A stretch of 58,758 bases of DNA from Tissierellia bacterium (GTDB lineage: Bacteria; Bacillota; Clostridia; Tissierellales; Sedimentibacteraceae): positions 1 to 58,758 of the forward strand of contig DURT01000088.1 of the NCBI GenBank assembly GCA_012843025.1. Direction: 5' to 3'. Shown here piece by piece: positions 4,309-10,185 of the stretch. A model generated the notes under the pieces. It was not told the DNA's origin. It saw only the letters and a list, made by a program, of their open reading frames with translations, and made no database searches. Made by a program: the position numbers and the translations under genes. How positions within the stretch are numbered: the first letter of the stretch is position 1; every line of letters starts with the position of its first letter.

Positions 4309-5715
4309 TTAATAATTCCTTTCATTAAGATCGGATTTTATTTTTTCAAGATTTAAAAATTGTGCCGTTTGTTTTATAAATTCGTCATTAGTCTTATATT
4401 TCAGAAGTCCATCAATTATTCTTTCTGTAACATCTGCAACAGGAAAGTTGCTCATTGCTTTTCTTAATTGCCAAATTGTCTGTAACTCTTCAGGGGTAAG
4501 GAGTAATTCTTCTCTTCTGGTGCCGGATTTATTAATATCAATAGCAGGAAATACTCTTTTTTCTGATAGCTTTCTGTCTAAGTGGATTTCCATATTGCCT
4601 GTTCCCTTAAATTCTTCAAATATTAAGTCGTCCATTTTGCTACCGGTTTCAATTAAGGCACTGGCAAGTATGGTGAGACTTCCTCCGTTTTCTATATTCC
4701 TTGCAGCACCGAAAAATCTCTTAGGTCCATATAAAGCTCCCGGGTCCAACCCTCCTGACAAAGTTCTTCCTGTGGGAGTAATAGTTAAATTGTAGGCTCT
4801 TGCAAGTCTTGTAATACTGTCTAGTAGAATAACCACATCTTTTCCGTGTTCCACCAATCTTTTAGCCCTGTCTAAAACCATTTCTGCAACCTTTATATGA
4901 TTTTTAGGCAGTTCATCAAAAGTGGAATAAACAACATCCCCTTTAACGCTTCTTTTCATATCTGTAACTTCTTCAGGACGTTCATCAATTAAAAGCATGA
5001 TTATTTCAATTTCAGGATAGTTTTCCGCAATACTGTTGGCAATGTTTTTCAAGATTGTTGTTTTTCCTGCTTTCGGCGGCGCAACAATCATACCTCTTTG
5101 TCCTCTTCCTATAGGTGCTATCAAATCAATTATTCTCATGCTAATATCTATGGGGGATATTTCTAATTTTATTCTTTCATTAGGGTAAATGGGGATGAGA
5201 GTGTCGAAATCTTTTCTATATTTAGAAGATTCAGGATTTTCATCATTTATTTCATTTACATAAAGCAGTGCTTTAAATTTTTCTCCTTGTTTGGGAGGTC
5301 TGGTAATACCTGAAATTTTATCTCCCGTTTTCATATGGAATCTTCTAATTTGAGAAGGGGATATGTATACATCCTCGTCGCTGGTTAGATAATTTTGGGT
5401 TCTTAAAAATCCGTAACCATCTGGGTGGGTTTCAAGAATACCGGATACTTGTTCCGATTCTCCGCCTCCAGCCTCTAATTCCTCAACTATCTTTTCAGGT
5501 AATGTTATTTTTTCTTCTTCTATTTCTATGGGTTCTGGGGATATTTCTTCTATTTTTTCTGTTGTAAGATTAACATCTTCTAATTTTTCAATTAAATTAT
5601 CTATCTCATCTAATTTTTTTATTAATTCTTCTTTTTTATATTTATAGGCATCCCGTATACCGTTTAATTTCGCCAAATCTTTCAATTCAGAAAGTTTTAA
5701 TTTTGTTAAATCCAT
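4309..5715 (-). CDS. rho: Transcription termination factor Rho
   Basis: Hexameric RNA-dependent ATPase that ends transcription at Rho-dependent sites. The 468-residue protein has the Rho N-terminal helical domain (residues 1-40, [15 protein letters not shown]), an acidic linker (about 40-85), a cold-shock-like RNA-binding domain (about 90-155, with GYGFLR and DVYIS), and the ATPase core with Walker A APPKAGKT (213-220), [12 protein letters not shown] and the Q- and R-loop region. The start ATG at 5715 follows AAGGAGG. The upstream ATG at 5730 would precede the ribosome binding site. The acidic insert is longer than in E. coli Rho, as in many Gram-positive homologues. Confidence 0.97.
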
Positions 5716-5861
5716 AAAGCCTCCTTGCATCTAATCTATGTAATCTATATGGGGGAAAAACAGATGAGTTCATGGCAGGTGTAAGTAGATGTTTAAATAC
5801 TATCATTTTACAATCTTTTAGTCAAGAACTTAATTATAATGTTTTCCTTAATAGTTACGAT

Positions 5862-5908
5862 TTGTTAATTTGTTAACTATTGATTTGTTTTAGTTTTTCT
5901 TATACTAT
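5862..5908 (+). promoter_or_regulatory. Rex-like operator plus sigma-A promoter of the sensory hydrogenase operon
   Basis: Bases 5862-5879 read TTGTTAA-4-TTAACTA and match the clostridial Rex (NADH/NAD+ sensor) consensus TTGTTAAnnnnTTAACAA at 13 of 14 defined positions. It abuts a promoter with -35 TTGATT (5880-5885), a 17-base spacer and -10 TACTAT (5903-5908). The first gene starts 32 bases further on, behind GAGGTG. The match is seen directly; Rex binding is inferred. Confidence 0.65.
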
Positions 5909-5940
5909 ATAAGTAAGAGATTATATAACCGAGGTGTAAA

Positions 5941-6186
5941 ATGACTGAACTAAAAGTTTGCGTAGGCAGTGCATGTCATTTAAAAGGTTCTTATGATGTA
6001 ATAGAAATTTTTAAATACTTAATAAAGAACAGAAATGTCGACCATTTGGTTGAGCTTAAGGCTGCCTTTTGTCTTGGTCATTGCACTGAAGCTGTATCGG
6101 TAAGTTTGGACGGAAAAATATATTCAGTAAATCCTGATAATGCGGAAATTTTTTTTGATGAATACGTTATGACCAAAGTGAGGTAG
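5941..6186 (+). CDS. Thioredoxin-like [2Fe-2S] protein (NuoE-like), hydrogenase operon
   Basis: An 81-residue thioredoxin-fold ferredoxin like the C-terminal part of NuoE/HydC. It has the four cysteines expected for a 2Fe-2S cluster: C7 and C12 in CVGSAC, and two more in the CLGHC element. It would pass electrons to or from its neighbours in the cytoplasm. It is the first gene of a three-gene operon. The next gene starts two bases after its stop, and the pair is followed by a phosphatase. Small NuoE-like partners of this kind accompany group C (HydS) hydrogenases. Confidence 0.85.
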   Translation: MTELKVCVGSACHLKGSYDVIEIFKYLIKNRNVDHLVELKAAFCLGHCTEAVSVSLDGKIYSVNPDNAEIFFDEYVMTKVR

Positions 6187-6188
6187 TT

Positions 6189-7898
6189 ATGAAAATACTT
6201 GACTTTTATCCTACAAATTGCAAGAATTGTTACAAATGCGTGAGAAATTGTGCCGTTAAAGCAATAAAAATGATTGATGATCAGGCTCAAATTGTGGAGG
6301 AAAAATGTATTGCATGCGGTAATTGTTTCTTAGTATGTCCACAAAATGCGAGAAATATCCACAGTGATCTGGAAAATGTGGAAAATGCCTTCTCTCAAGG
6401 TAAGAAAATAATAGTATCCATTGCTCCTTCCTACTTGGGAGTTTATGATGAACCTTACAAACTTATATCCGTGCTGAAATATTTGGGTGTTTCCTTGGTT
6501 GAAGAAACAGCCATAGGGGCGGAACAAGTTACAAAACTTTATGGAGAATATATTAAAACAACCAAGGAAAAAAACGCCATTACCACCTGTTGTCCGACGG
6601 TGAATATGACTATACAAAATTATTACCCCGATCTTATAAAATACTTAATTCCAATTGACTCCCCCATGATTGCCCACTGTAAAATGATTAGAAAACGACA
6701 TAATGATGCTTATATAGTATTCTTGGGACCTTGTATATCTAAAAAATGTGAAGCTTATGGCTACCAGCTATCTGGTGTCATGGATGCAGTTATTTCCTTC
6801 GAAGAACTAGATAAGCTATTGGAAGCCAAAAATATAGATATATCCCAATTTGAAGAAAGCTATCCTGATTTAGAAGGAAATTACACAGGGAAGAAGTATC
6901 CATTGGAGTATGGTATTTTGTCAGGAATTAGCAGTATTGTAGAAGCAAGTAAGTTTACTCCTTTTGCAATATCAGGCATAGATAATTTAAGAGGTGCCTT
7001 CGATGCCATGACTAAAGGAGAACTGACAAATGTACTAATCGAAGCTAACAGCTGTGATGGGGGTTGCATGGGAGGACCAGCGGTACCAAAGAGGAGCAAA
7101 AATATATATGTAAGAAAAATTCATGCCCGAAAAAAAATCCAATCATTAAAGAATAATGAATATGAAAATTATACAGCAGAAGAAAAAAAATTAAATTATG
7201 TGAGAAAATTTAGGAATAAACAGTATATTCATCCTCCCTTCTCAGAAGAAGAAATTCGTAGTGTACTTGAGCAAACAGGCAAGCACAGTCCTGCTGATGA
7301 GTTAAATTGTGGAGCCTGCGGATATGATACATGCCGGGAAAAGGCTATATCTGTCTTGGAAGGATTGTCTCATCCTCAAATGTGTATGCCCTATATGCGC
7401 AGTGAAGCAGAAAAAATATCAAATATATATTTTGAATACTCTCCCAGTATAATTGTAATTGTTGATTTGAATCTTAACATACTAGACTTAAATCCCGTGG
7501 GAGAAAAAACTTTTAATGTTGATGTCAGCACCATTAAGGGCAAAGCCCTTTCCACCATTATGCCGGACAATGATTTTAAACATGTGTTAAAAACTGAAGA
7601 AAGTATGGTGGGGCGAAAAATAAAACTTGATAAGTACGGTTTAATTGTATTCCAGCGTATTATATACCTGCCTAAAAATAAAATATTGTTTGGCATATTA
7701 AATGACATTACTGATGATGAACTTAAAAAGCAACAAATTATAAACTTTAAATTAAATACATTAGAAACTGCCGACAATGTAATTGAAAAACAGATGCGGG
7801 TTGCCCAGGAGATAGCAGGACTCTTAGGTGAAACTACTGCTGAAACAAAAGCTGCCTTATTAAAGCTGAAAAAAGTTGTTTTAGAGGAAAATGAATGA
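6189..7898 (+). CDS. Sensory [FeFe]-hydrogenase (group C/HydS-like) with PAS domain
   Basis: A 569-residue protein. The N-terminus has a two-[4Fe-4S] ferredoxin domain (C11, C14, C17, C21 and C40, C43, C46, C50). The hydrogenase core has divergent but complete H-cluster ligands: TTCCPTV (C134, C135), GPCISK (C182) and SCDGGCMGG (C289, C293). A further [4Fe-4S] module with CGACGYDTC and a last Cys in MCMP follows (residues 374-399), then a PAS domain from about 415 to 530. This domain order is that of HydS/HfsB-type sensory hydrogenases rather than bulk H2 producers. It shares an operon with the 2Fe-2S protein upstream and overlaps the SpoIIE-like phosphatase downstream by four bases. I infer that it senses H2 or redox state and signals through the phosphatase. 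Confidence 0.87.
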   Translation: MKILDFYPTNCKNCYKCVRNCAVKAIKMIDDQAQIVEEKCIACGNCFLVCPQNARNIHSDLENVENAFSQGKKIIVSIAPSYLGVYDEPYKLISVLKYLGVSLVEETAIGAEQVTKLYGEYIKTTKEKNAITTCCPTVNMTIQNYYPDLIKYLIPIDSPMIAHCKMIRKRHNDAYIVFLGPCISKKCEAYGYQLSGVMDAVISFEELDKLLEAKNIDISQFEESYPDLEGNYTGKKYPLEYGILSGISSIVEASKFTPFAISGIDNLRGAFDAMTKGELTNVLIEANSCDGGCMGGPAVPKRSKNIYVRKIHARKKIQSLKNNEYENYTAEEKKLNYVRKFRNKQYIHPPFSEEEIRSVLEQTGKHSPADELNCGACGYDTCREKAISVLEGLSHPQMCMPYMRSEAEKISNIYFEYSPSIIVIVDLNLNILDLNPVGEKTFNVDVSTIKGKALSTIMPDNDFKHVLKTEESMVGRKIKLDKYGLIVFQRIIYLPKNKILFGILNDITDDELKKQQIINFKLNTLETADNVIEKQMRVAQEIAGLLGETTAETKAALLKLKKVVLEENE

Positions 7899-9064
7899 TG
7901 GAGTATTTCATTGACATTAATTATAAAAGTATAAATAAACATAATGAAGAATTGTGCGGAGACAAGGTAGAATATATTTATGATGATGAAGGTGTTATCA
8001 TTGTTATGTCCGATGGTTTAGGTAGCGGCGTAAAGGCAAACATATTGGCAACCATGACTACCAAGATTGCGGTAACCATGTTAAAGGAAGGAGCATCTAT
8101 AGACGATACCATTGAAACTATTATAAATACTTTACCAGAATGCAAAATTCGGAAATTGGCTTATTCCACCTTCACTATAATTAGAATCGATAAGGATAAC
8201 AATGCATATATTGCAGAATATGATAATCCCCCTTATTTTTATTATTCTTATAAGAGGAGTATTCCCGTTCCTAAGAAGGAGCGTATTATAGGAAATAAGA
8301 AAATCTACGAGTCCAATATTAAACTAAATCTTGGAGATGCAATATGCGTTGTAAGTGATGGTGCAATTCATGCGGGAATTGGACAAATGCTTAATTTGGG
8401 CTGGTCCTGGGATGAAATAAACGAGTATTTAAGGGAACTGAACAATGTAAATCGCTCAGCACAACTCATTAACGGAAACTTCATAGGAGTATGCAGCAAC
8501 CTATACAACAATCAACCAGGGGATGATACGACCATAGTGACCCTTAAAGTAAGAAAGCCGGAAATTATAGATATTTTCATTGGTCCTCCCGGGGACAAGA
8601 GCAAAGATAAATATCTTGGTGAAATTATGAGAAATAGTAATAATATTAAAATTATATGTGGCGGTACCACAGCTTTAATTGCAGAAAGGGAATTGGGACT
8701 GGAACTAGAAGTTGATATGGACTCCATGAGGGAGGATGTTCCTCCTATTGCCTATATGGAAGGCTTTGATTTAGTTACAGAGGGAGTTCTCACCTTGGGC
8801 AAAACCTTAGAGAATATAAAGAAATTAAATGATACAAGTTACGAAAATGTAATTGATAACAATGAGTATGACGGATGTTCCCTCCTAACAAAGTATTTGA
8901 CAGATATAGGAACTCATATTAATTTTTACTTAGGAAGTGCTGTTAATCCAGCACATCAAAATCCTAATTTCCCGGCAGATTTTAACATTAAGAAAAATAT
9001 AATCCATGGCATAATAAGTGAACTTAAAAAGGCAGGAAAAAAAATAAACGTAGTACATATATAG
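7895..9064 (+). CDS. SpoIIE-family (PP2C-type) serine/threonine phosphatase
   Basis: A 389-residue protein with the SpoIIE/PP2C fold. Metal-binding motifs are visible as MSDGLGSGVKA (about residues 38-48), VVSDGAIHAGIG and GDDTTIVTLKV (about 210-220). The segment after residue 230 (GPPGDKSKDKYLGE onward) is an additional conserved domain found in phosphatases linked to HydS hydrogenases; its role is unknown to me. The start overlaps the hydrogenase stop (ATGA), so synthesis is coupled. Most likely it is the output module that dephosphorylates an unknown anti-sigma-antagonist-like target. Confidence 0.85.
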   Translation: MMEYFIDINYKSINKHNEELCGDKVEYIYDDEGVIIVMSDGLGSGVKANILATMTTKIAVTMLKEGASIDDTIETIINTLPECKIRKLAYSTFTIIRIDKDNNAYIAEYDNPPYFYYSYKRSIPVPKKERIIGNKKIYESNIKLNLGDAICVVSDGAIHAGIGQMLNLGWSWDEINEYLRELNNVNRSAQLINGNFIGVCSNLYNNQPGDDTTIVTLKVRKPEIIDIFIGPPGDKSKDKYLGEIMRNSNNIKIICGGTTALIAERELGLELEVDMDSMREDVPPIAYMEGFDLVTEGVLTLGKTLENIKKLNDTSYENVIDNNEYDGCSLLTKYLTDIGTHINFYLGSAVNPAHQNPNFPADFNIKKNIIHGIISELKKAGKKINVVHI

Positions 9065-9134: not shown

Positions 9135-10115
9135 TTATTTCACATATGCATAAGAAGGTTTCTTGTCTAAGGCATGGGTTGTTTCTATAAAACGTATAGT
9201 TCCTGACTTGGAACGAGTTACAACAGAAGATGTTCTTGCCCTGTTATTGGCCATATATCTGACTCCCTTTAACAGTTCACCGTTGGAAACTCCTGTAGCT
9301 GCAAAGATAATATCATCACCTTTTGCCAAATCATCCATGGTCAAAACTCTGTCCCAGTATCCGGCTCCAGCCATTTCCATGCATCTTCTTTTTTCTTCTT
9401 CATTACTTGGTCTTAAAATACCCTGGAATTCGCCTCCCAAGCATTTAAGGGCAGCTGCAGATATTACACCTTCAGGTGCCCCGCCCCTTCCTACAAACAT
9501 ATCCACTCCTGATTCGCTGAAACATGTTGCTATAGCTGCAGCAACATCGCCGTCTCCGAACAGTTTGATCCGGGCACCTATACTCCTTGCCCTTCGAATA
9601 ATGTCCTCATGTCTTTCCCTGTCCTGAATTATTACTGTTATGTCTGTAATGTCTTTACATAATGCCTTTGCCACATTGTACAAATTTTTCTCTATGGAAG
9701 CAGTTATATCTATACAGCCTGCCGCCCTGGGTCCTACAGCAATTTTGTCCATGTAGACATCAGGTGCGTGAAGCAGGCATCCCTTAGGTGCTACTGCCAC
9801 TACAGACAGTGCTCCAGGAAGTCCTTTGGCAACTAAGTTGGTTCCGTCTAGGGGATCTACCGCCACATCGATTTCAGGAGAACCTTCTTCCCATGTTCCT
9901 ATTTTTTCTCCTATGTAAAGCATGGGGGCTTCATCCATTTCTCCTTCCCCTATTACTACGGTGCCTTTAATATCTAAAACCTGGAACATACTTCTCATGC
10001 CGTCCACTGCTGCCTGGTCTGCAATTTCTTTATTCCCTCTGCCTAAGTATTTTCCACAACCTAAGGCTGCAGCTTCCGTTACCCTGACTATATTTAAAGC
10101 TAATTCTCTATCCAT
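9135..10115 (-). CDS. glpX: Class II fructose-1,6-bisphosphatase
   Basis: Hydrolyses fructose 1,6-bisphosphate to fructose 6-phosphate in gluconeogenesis. The 326-residue protein shows the GlpX metal- and substrate-binding motifs GEGEMDEAP (residues 56-64) and DPLDGTN (87-93), then GRGGAPEGV and a final domain with AATGVSNGELLKGV. The start is the ATG at 10115, where GGGAG has proper spacing; an ATG two codons upstream touches the ribosome binding site. It is a single gene, transcribed away from kce. It is the only gluconeogenic gene in the window. Confidence 0.96.
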   Translation of the reverse strand: MDRELALNIVRVTEAAALGCGKYLGRGNKEIADQAAVDGMRSMFQVLDIKGTVVIGEGEMDEAPMLYIGEKIGTWEEGSPEIDVAVDPLDGTNLVAKGLPGALSVVAVAPKGCLLHAPDVYMDKIAVGPRAAGCIDITASIEKNLYNVAKALCKDITDITVIIQDRERHEDIIRRARSIGARIKLFGDGDVAAAIATCFSESGVDMFVGRGGAPEGVISAAALKCLGGEFQGILRPSNEEEKRRCMEMAGAGYWDRVLTMDDLAKGDDIIFAATGVSNGELLKGVRYMANNRARTSSVVTRSKSGTIRFIETTHALDKKPSYAYVK

Positions 10116-10185
10116 ATTCATCTCCCACTATTTCTTTATTTTTCTACATATAAAGATACTATAAATACAAAAAATTTTCCACCCT

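Follow-up and report, generated by a model that had tools for sequence, protein, structure and literature searches.

The window analysed here, i.e. the whole of a 58,758-base stretch from a member of the genus Sedimentibacter, carries a three-gene operon (5941-9064, + strand) in which hfsA, hfsB and hfsC lie adjacent in that order, and which encodes a PAS-bearing [FeFe] hydrogenase (HydS) together with a phosphatase. The operon is preceded by a Rex-like operator that is conserved upstream of orthologous operons far above the level seen for shuffled sequences and permuted motifs. From this conservation we predict that control of the hfs/HydS operon by Rex is likely; that such control is combined with the sensing of hydrogen through HydS and HfsC is an interpretation that we favour with distinctly less confidence. 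The connection between Rex and hfs is not new in itself, as it was predicted earlier for Thermoanaerobacterium saccharolyticum, and the type of operon is known. What is new is the breadth of the conservation and the geometry of the associated promoters.

The operator (TTGTTAATTTGTTAACTA, 5862-5879, + strand) agrees at 13 of the 14 defined positions with TTGTTAANNNNTTAACAA, the consensus published for clostridial Rex, and the ATG of hfsA (5941) lies 79 bp downstream of its start. No other site in the window comes within one mismatch of the consensus; shuffled versions of the window contain 0.07 such sites on average, and 7 out of 100 shuffles reach one. The first-pass annotation of this DNA had put a hydrogenase operon under a Rex-like operator within 5862-9064, with a 13-of-14 match to the consensus next to the -35 hexamer; both limits are correct, and so are the match and its position.

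To what extent the operator is conserved was determined in 103 loci encoding HydS relatives (80 from named contigs and 23 from genomes of the family, together 95 distinct proteins). After removal of seven loci without a recognisable hfsA, and of those with fewer than 200 upstream bases or with a HydS at least 95% alike, 80 non-redundant upstream regions remained, which we divided into 17 Sedimentibacter regions (HydS at least 60% identical to that of the window) and 63 others. The best site matches at 12 or more of 14 positions in 38 of the 80 regions, namely in 14 of the 17 from Sedimentibacter and 24 of the 63 others, whereas dinucleotide shuffles yield on average 0.26 and 0.50 such regions, respectively (0.76 in total). 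When the half-site TTGTTAA was compared with its permutations it ranked first among 105 palindromes, with 15 regions scoring at least 13 and 38 scoring at least 12; no other palindrome reached 13 in more than two regions, and the next seven in rank reached 12 in four at most. The distribution of the sites also follows the arrangement of the genes: where hfsA closely follows another gene none of the 13 regions has a site, whereas where hfsA leads the operon a site is found in 14/17 Sedimentibacter regions and 24/50 others.

In Sedimentibacter the position of the operator relative to the putative promoter is conserved. In the window it directly abuts a -35-like hexamer (TTGATT, 5880-5885, + strand), which is separated by 17 bp from a -10-like hexamer (TACTAT, 5903-5908, + strand; TATAAT in close relatives), giving 8 of 12 promoter letters. 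This match falls under the threshold of the sigma-70 promoter scan, which lists no promoter at 5880-5908, and the assignment is therefore based on the geometry in relatives. For 13 of the 17 regions from Sedimentibacter, a distance of 18-24 bp separates the start of the operator from that of the best -35-like hexamer, which with its -10 attains 9-11 out of 12; the window shares this spacing at its lower score, and three regions do not fit. Elsewhere among the clostridia, 14 of 24 operators follow a TATAAT-like hexamer at a distance of 0-10 bp (5.9 expected at random places), a position to be expected of a repressor. That the operator has been kept while its position shifted points to selection on Rex control. 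The direction of that control is less evident in Sedimentibacter, where the operator (centre near -45) immediately precedes the -35 without covering it, so that repression is not certain there; Rex might bind and yet activate, or merely tune, the promoter, as the regular 18-24 bp spacing would allow. Given the position just after the -10 in the other clostridia and the description of Rex as a repressor in papers on this protein, we consider activation or tuning quite improbable, and take repression as the mode of control below.

The presence of the regulator agrees with this prediction. The first-pass annotation had named the lack of a rex gene as decisive against its own proposal, but Rex is encoded in the window's genome (G000, a 2.2-Mb draft that is 97.4% complete) on contig C75, scoring 320 bits against the Rex equivalog of NCBI and 264 bits against a Rex of solved structure, and 26 of 27 genomes of the family encode a member of the Rex DNA-binding family. 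In one of the 103 loci, on a gut Clostridia metagenome contig (L086), a rex-family gene (316-957) lies directly before the operon, 36 bp ahead of hfsA. A different regulator that reads a similar site would also account for the palindrome, Rex binding at the operator being a prediction; because the motif equals the published clostridial Rex consensus, and because of the rex gene adjoining the operon in L086, we regard such a regulator as very unlikely. In a search for autoregulation, the sites upstream of rex itself score 9-12 out of 14 at best, with one reaching 12 (26 family loci were given, of which the motif recognised 23). Upstream of hydABC the best match is 11/14 at -38 in G000, 13/14 in the congener G025 and 8 in G004, a hydC-like gene being recognised in three of the eight loci.

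In the literature, Caldicellulosiruptor bescii and Clostridium thermocellum are reported to have Rex regulons with sites upstream of genes for hydrogenases and for hydrogenase maturation. These regulons resemble the window in having Rex sites before hydrogenase genes, but their accounts, as far as consulted, name no HydS/SpoIIE operon as a target. The closest precedent is T. saccharolyticum, for which a Rex site TTGTTAATAAATTAACTA was predicted at -78 of hfsABCD (Tsac_1550 onward; Table 5 of PMC5886521). This site equals that of the window at all 14 defined positions, including the single deviation from the consensus, and the order of the genes is the same (hfsA, the PAS hydrogenase gene hfsB, the phosphatase gene hfsC), except that the window operon is without hfsD. 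Our search of the open-licence literature found no test of whether Rex binds at hfs, and no survey of the Rex-hfs link across species (further sources behind the comparisons of Rex, hfs and the hydrogenases are PMC6391272, PMC8457756, PMC5707799, PMC11837493 and PMC12578642).

The first gene, hfsA (5941-6186, + strand), encodes an 81-residue thioredoxin-like [2Fe-2S] protein (PF01257). The second, hfsB or hydS (6189-7898, + strand), encodes the 569-residue HydS, which is 77-80% identical to the proteins of the named relatives S. saalensis and S. hydroxybenzoicus, an identity that helped to place the genome in Sedimentibacter, and which according to domain searches, alignment and a structural model consists of an [FeFe] hydrogenase with two ferredoxin clusters, a C-terminal Fe-S domain and a PAS domain. 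All cysteines of the ferredoxin clusters and the four ligand cysteines of the H-cluster, which lie in the Fe_hyd_lg_C domain (PF02906; 6402-7079, + strand), are kept in 95 of 95 proteins, including, for the H-cluster ligands, 21 of 21 from Sedimentibacter. The PAS domain that had been read from the sequence at the outset goes undetected when Pfam is applied to the window protein, yet Pfam detects it in 35 of 40 aligned members, and residues 421-506 (7449-7706, + strand) adopt a PAS fold in the AlphaFold2 model (mean pLDDT 88.5). It is followed by one long helix (residues 508-567; 7710-7889, + strand), modelled with a confidence of 55-70 over most of its length, that carries a near-invariant segment, one of the most conserved of HydS, and that we propose as the output to HfsC.

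By its ligands and domain layout HydS appears to fit the group C, i.e. PAS-bearing and sensory, [FeFe] hydrogenases, although it departs from them at one position. In group C the proton-transfer cysteine equivalent to Cys299 of CpI is replaced, mostly by Ala (PMC10407848), and both characterised sensory enzymes have Ala there. The window protein has kept it (Cys134), and among the 95 relatives there are 75 with Cys, 14 with Ala and 6 with Ser. The HydS of Thermotoga maritima (group C; PMC10055695), which is one of those with Ala at this position, otherwise shares with the window protein the N-terminal ferredoxin clusters, the H-domain and the PAS domain, as well as Gly and Ser at positions occupied by Met in catalytic enzymes. 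The HydS of Ruminococcus albus is likewise a PAS-bearing, putatively H2-sensing hydrogenase encoded beside a regulatory enzyme, but it is described with a Ser/Thr kinase, whereas the window has a phosphatase and no kinase nearby. With the HydS of Thermoanaerobacter mathranii (group D; PMC13104023, PMC10407848) the window protein has in common a C-terminal [4Fe-4S] cluster and a putative sensory role; since group D is without PAS, the modelled PAS domain sets the window protein apart from that group.

A group-D-like protein is encoded by a separate gene of the same genome, in a second hydrogenase-like signalling operon (L137 on G000:C7, 858-4520) that specifies this PAS-less protein with a C-terminal Fe-S cluster, two HATPase proteins (one of them RsbW-like), two DRTGG proteins and a PHP protein. 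It can be imagined that this operon supplies a kinase-like partner for the HfsC phosphatase. The genome further encodes a B1-type [FeFe] hydrogenase that is monomeric and accompanied by a small HfsA-like [2Fe-2S] protein of its own (L136 on G000:C36, 2724-4549), and no Rex-like site of 12/14 or better is present in the 8-kb stretch around it.

The SpoIIE-like phosphatase, which the first-pass annotation had mentioned in one breath with the sensory hydrogenase, is the product of a separate third gene. According to family search, alignment and model, hfsC (7895-9064, + strand) encodes a 389-residue PP2C phosphatase of the SpoIIE/RsbU type with an additional C-terminal alpha/beta domain. Residues D23, D40, D155, D210 and D211 are invariant in 43 sequences, PP2C folds lead the PDB matches of the HfsC model, and the 50 matches listed are all PP2C or PP2C-bearing proteins. 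The alpha/beta domain (residues 224-388; window positions 8564-9058) is highly conserved and has no match in Pfam.

Several observations weigh against a hydrogen sensor under the control of Rex, besides the position of the operator in Sedimentibacter that was discussed above. Sites resembling the Rex consensus are not enriched in G000: there are 37 with at most two mismatches, as compared with 61 for the reversed control, and three with one mismatch, where about 2.6 would be expected by chance (extrapolated from the shuffles of the window), and none is perfect. The other two one-mismatch sites are located at G000:C35:45544 and G000:C86:12569, one of them intergenic between divergent genes and the other within a reading frame. 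These numbers are what one would see if the palindrome were a chance match in AT-rich DNA without a regulator. The match is thus unremarkable at the level of the genome and the reality of the site rests on its conservation before orthologous operons. That conservation, i.e. the excess over shuffles, the first rank among the permuted palindromes and the conserved spacing to the promoter, makes a chance match extremely improbable. The conservation is also incomplete, as the best site stays below 12 in 39 of the 63 non-Sedimentibacter regions and in three of the 17 from Sedimentibacter, and the passages on the Rex regulon of C. thermocellum do not list hfs, even though this species has it. Finally, neither HydE nor HydF nor HydG was found in G000, although a contig may be missing from the draft, and the H-cluster of HydS is consequently putative here. 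Of the two layers of redox control proposed in the first-pass annotation, the one exerted by Rex is thus well supported in silico by the encoded regulator, the conserved operator and its geometry, and the rex gene in L086, whereas the hydrogen-sensing one appears weaker. Two of the 37 sites, each matching at 12/14, it may be added, precede genes that we take, by eye, to encode a crotonase and a thiolase.

The gap in the maturases extends beyond the window's genome. At curated cut-offs HydE was recognised in 10, HydF in 8 and HydG in 8 of 25 genomes of the genus. G003 (98% complete), G004 (99%) and G005, G016 and G020 (95-97%) lack all three, and G003 and G004 match the cultured strains S. hydroxybenzoicus DSM 7310 and S. 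saalensis DSM 13558. Among the genomes that encode HydS, none of the three was found in G000 or in 10 other congeners that are 62-99% complete, not counting a 20-bit HydE match in G014. Proteins of the [FeFe]-hydrogenase family have nevertheless been kept in the genomes lacking all three: there are five matches in each of G000, G003, G016 and G020, six in G004 and three in G005 (which has no HydS), and the motifs are intact in those G000 proteins that were read. The median dN/dS of HydS is 0.057 among the maturase-less genomes (17 of 55 pairs unsaturated) and 0.086 among the others (16 of 45). As most pairs were dropped because of saturation at silent sites (38/55, 89/110 and 29/45; HydA was recovered for four of eight loci), these values indicate strong purifying selection without permitting a finer comparison. 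On the HydS tree the state without maturases requires six changes, of which at least four are forced by well-supported branches, although gaps in the drafts could mimic some. Cases of hydrogenases without maturases are also on record for Rhodospirillum rubrum and Entamoeba (PMC4967309).

If HydS had no H-cluster, it would not detect H2 in the usual manner, which bears on the earlier claim of a hydrogen sensor. In that case HydS, still under Rex, would lack the [2Fe] subcluster and signal some other redox state through its Fe-S clusters and the PAS domain. The absence of HydE, HydF and HydG from 11 HydS-bearing genomes, in which the protein is nonetheless under purifying selection, is consistent with this. 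The H-cluster ligand cysteines are, however, invariant in all 95 proteins, catalytic hydrogenases have been kept as well and draft genomes may miss a contig, and we consider a sensor of this other kind doubtful. It is also conceivable, as a tentative suggestion, that G000 and at least two Sedimentibacter genomes matching cultured strains obtain the [2Fe] subcluster by an undescribed route (another set of enzymes, or uptake from neighbours), or else that their five to six hydrogenase-family proteins, among them HydS under Rex control, function in its absence. In G002 and G009 hydE and hydF are adjacent without hydG and lie beside an SsuA-type importer (loci noted in connection with the gap and with hydE-hydF are L195 2900-5214, L196 6944-9216 and L197). 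The importer was considered as a stand-in for HydG and rejected: strong matches are confined to these two of the 25 genomes (57% mutual identity), the remaining matches being weak, so that it cannot explain the genomes from which all three maturases are missing.

The combination of Rex control with hydrogen sensing, which we favour, would most likely operate as follows. At high NAD+ Rex would bind at 5862-5879 and lower the transcription of hfsABC, and rising NADH would release it, so that the sensor would be made when reductant accumulates. At its Fe-S/H-cluster domain HydS would then read H2, or a redox state linked to it, and may pass the signal through the C-terminal Fe-S cluster and the PAS domain to the long C-terminal helix, by which, in putative contact with HfsC, it would set the activity of the PP2C phosphatase. 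HfsC in turn may alter the phosphorylation of a target that retunes the fermentation genes.

The surroundings of the operon differ between relatives. In the window no hfsD follows hfsC; the next gene is convergent (9135-10121, minus strand) and is presumably glpX, whereas the gene upstream on the other strand (4309-5730) is one that we take to be rho. Of the 66 related loci with sufficient sequence (nine more have short tails), 27 have a hydrogenase gene directly after hfsC, and so do, within the genus, G001, G002, G020 and G026 (split into two frames in the last), which suggests that hfsD was probably lost within the genus. In the gut relatives L068, L070, L079 and L083 there are two hfsA-like genes, preceded by a kinase-like gene of the APH family (tested in L070), and a gene further upstream of hfsA in L068, L070 and L083 is, judging by eye, presumably adhE.

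Deletion of hfsB raises the ethanol yield in several thermophilic anaerobes, and in T. saccharolyticum deletion of hfsA or hfsB raised the ethanol yield and, two- to threefold, the adhE transcripts. The operator may therefore offer a practical point of intervention. Should the gap in the maturases be real, it would provide bacteria that can be cultured and used to study whether and how an H-cluster forms without HydE, HydF and HydG. If control by Rex holds for the hfs/HydS operon of many clostridia, a putative hydrogen sensor would be made only when NADH builds up, and the link between Rex and hfs would thereby tie together H2 and NADH, the signals that set the split between ethanol, acetate and H2 in fermenters.

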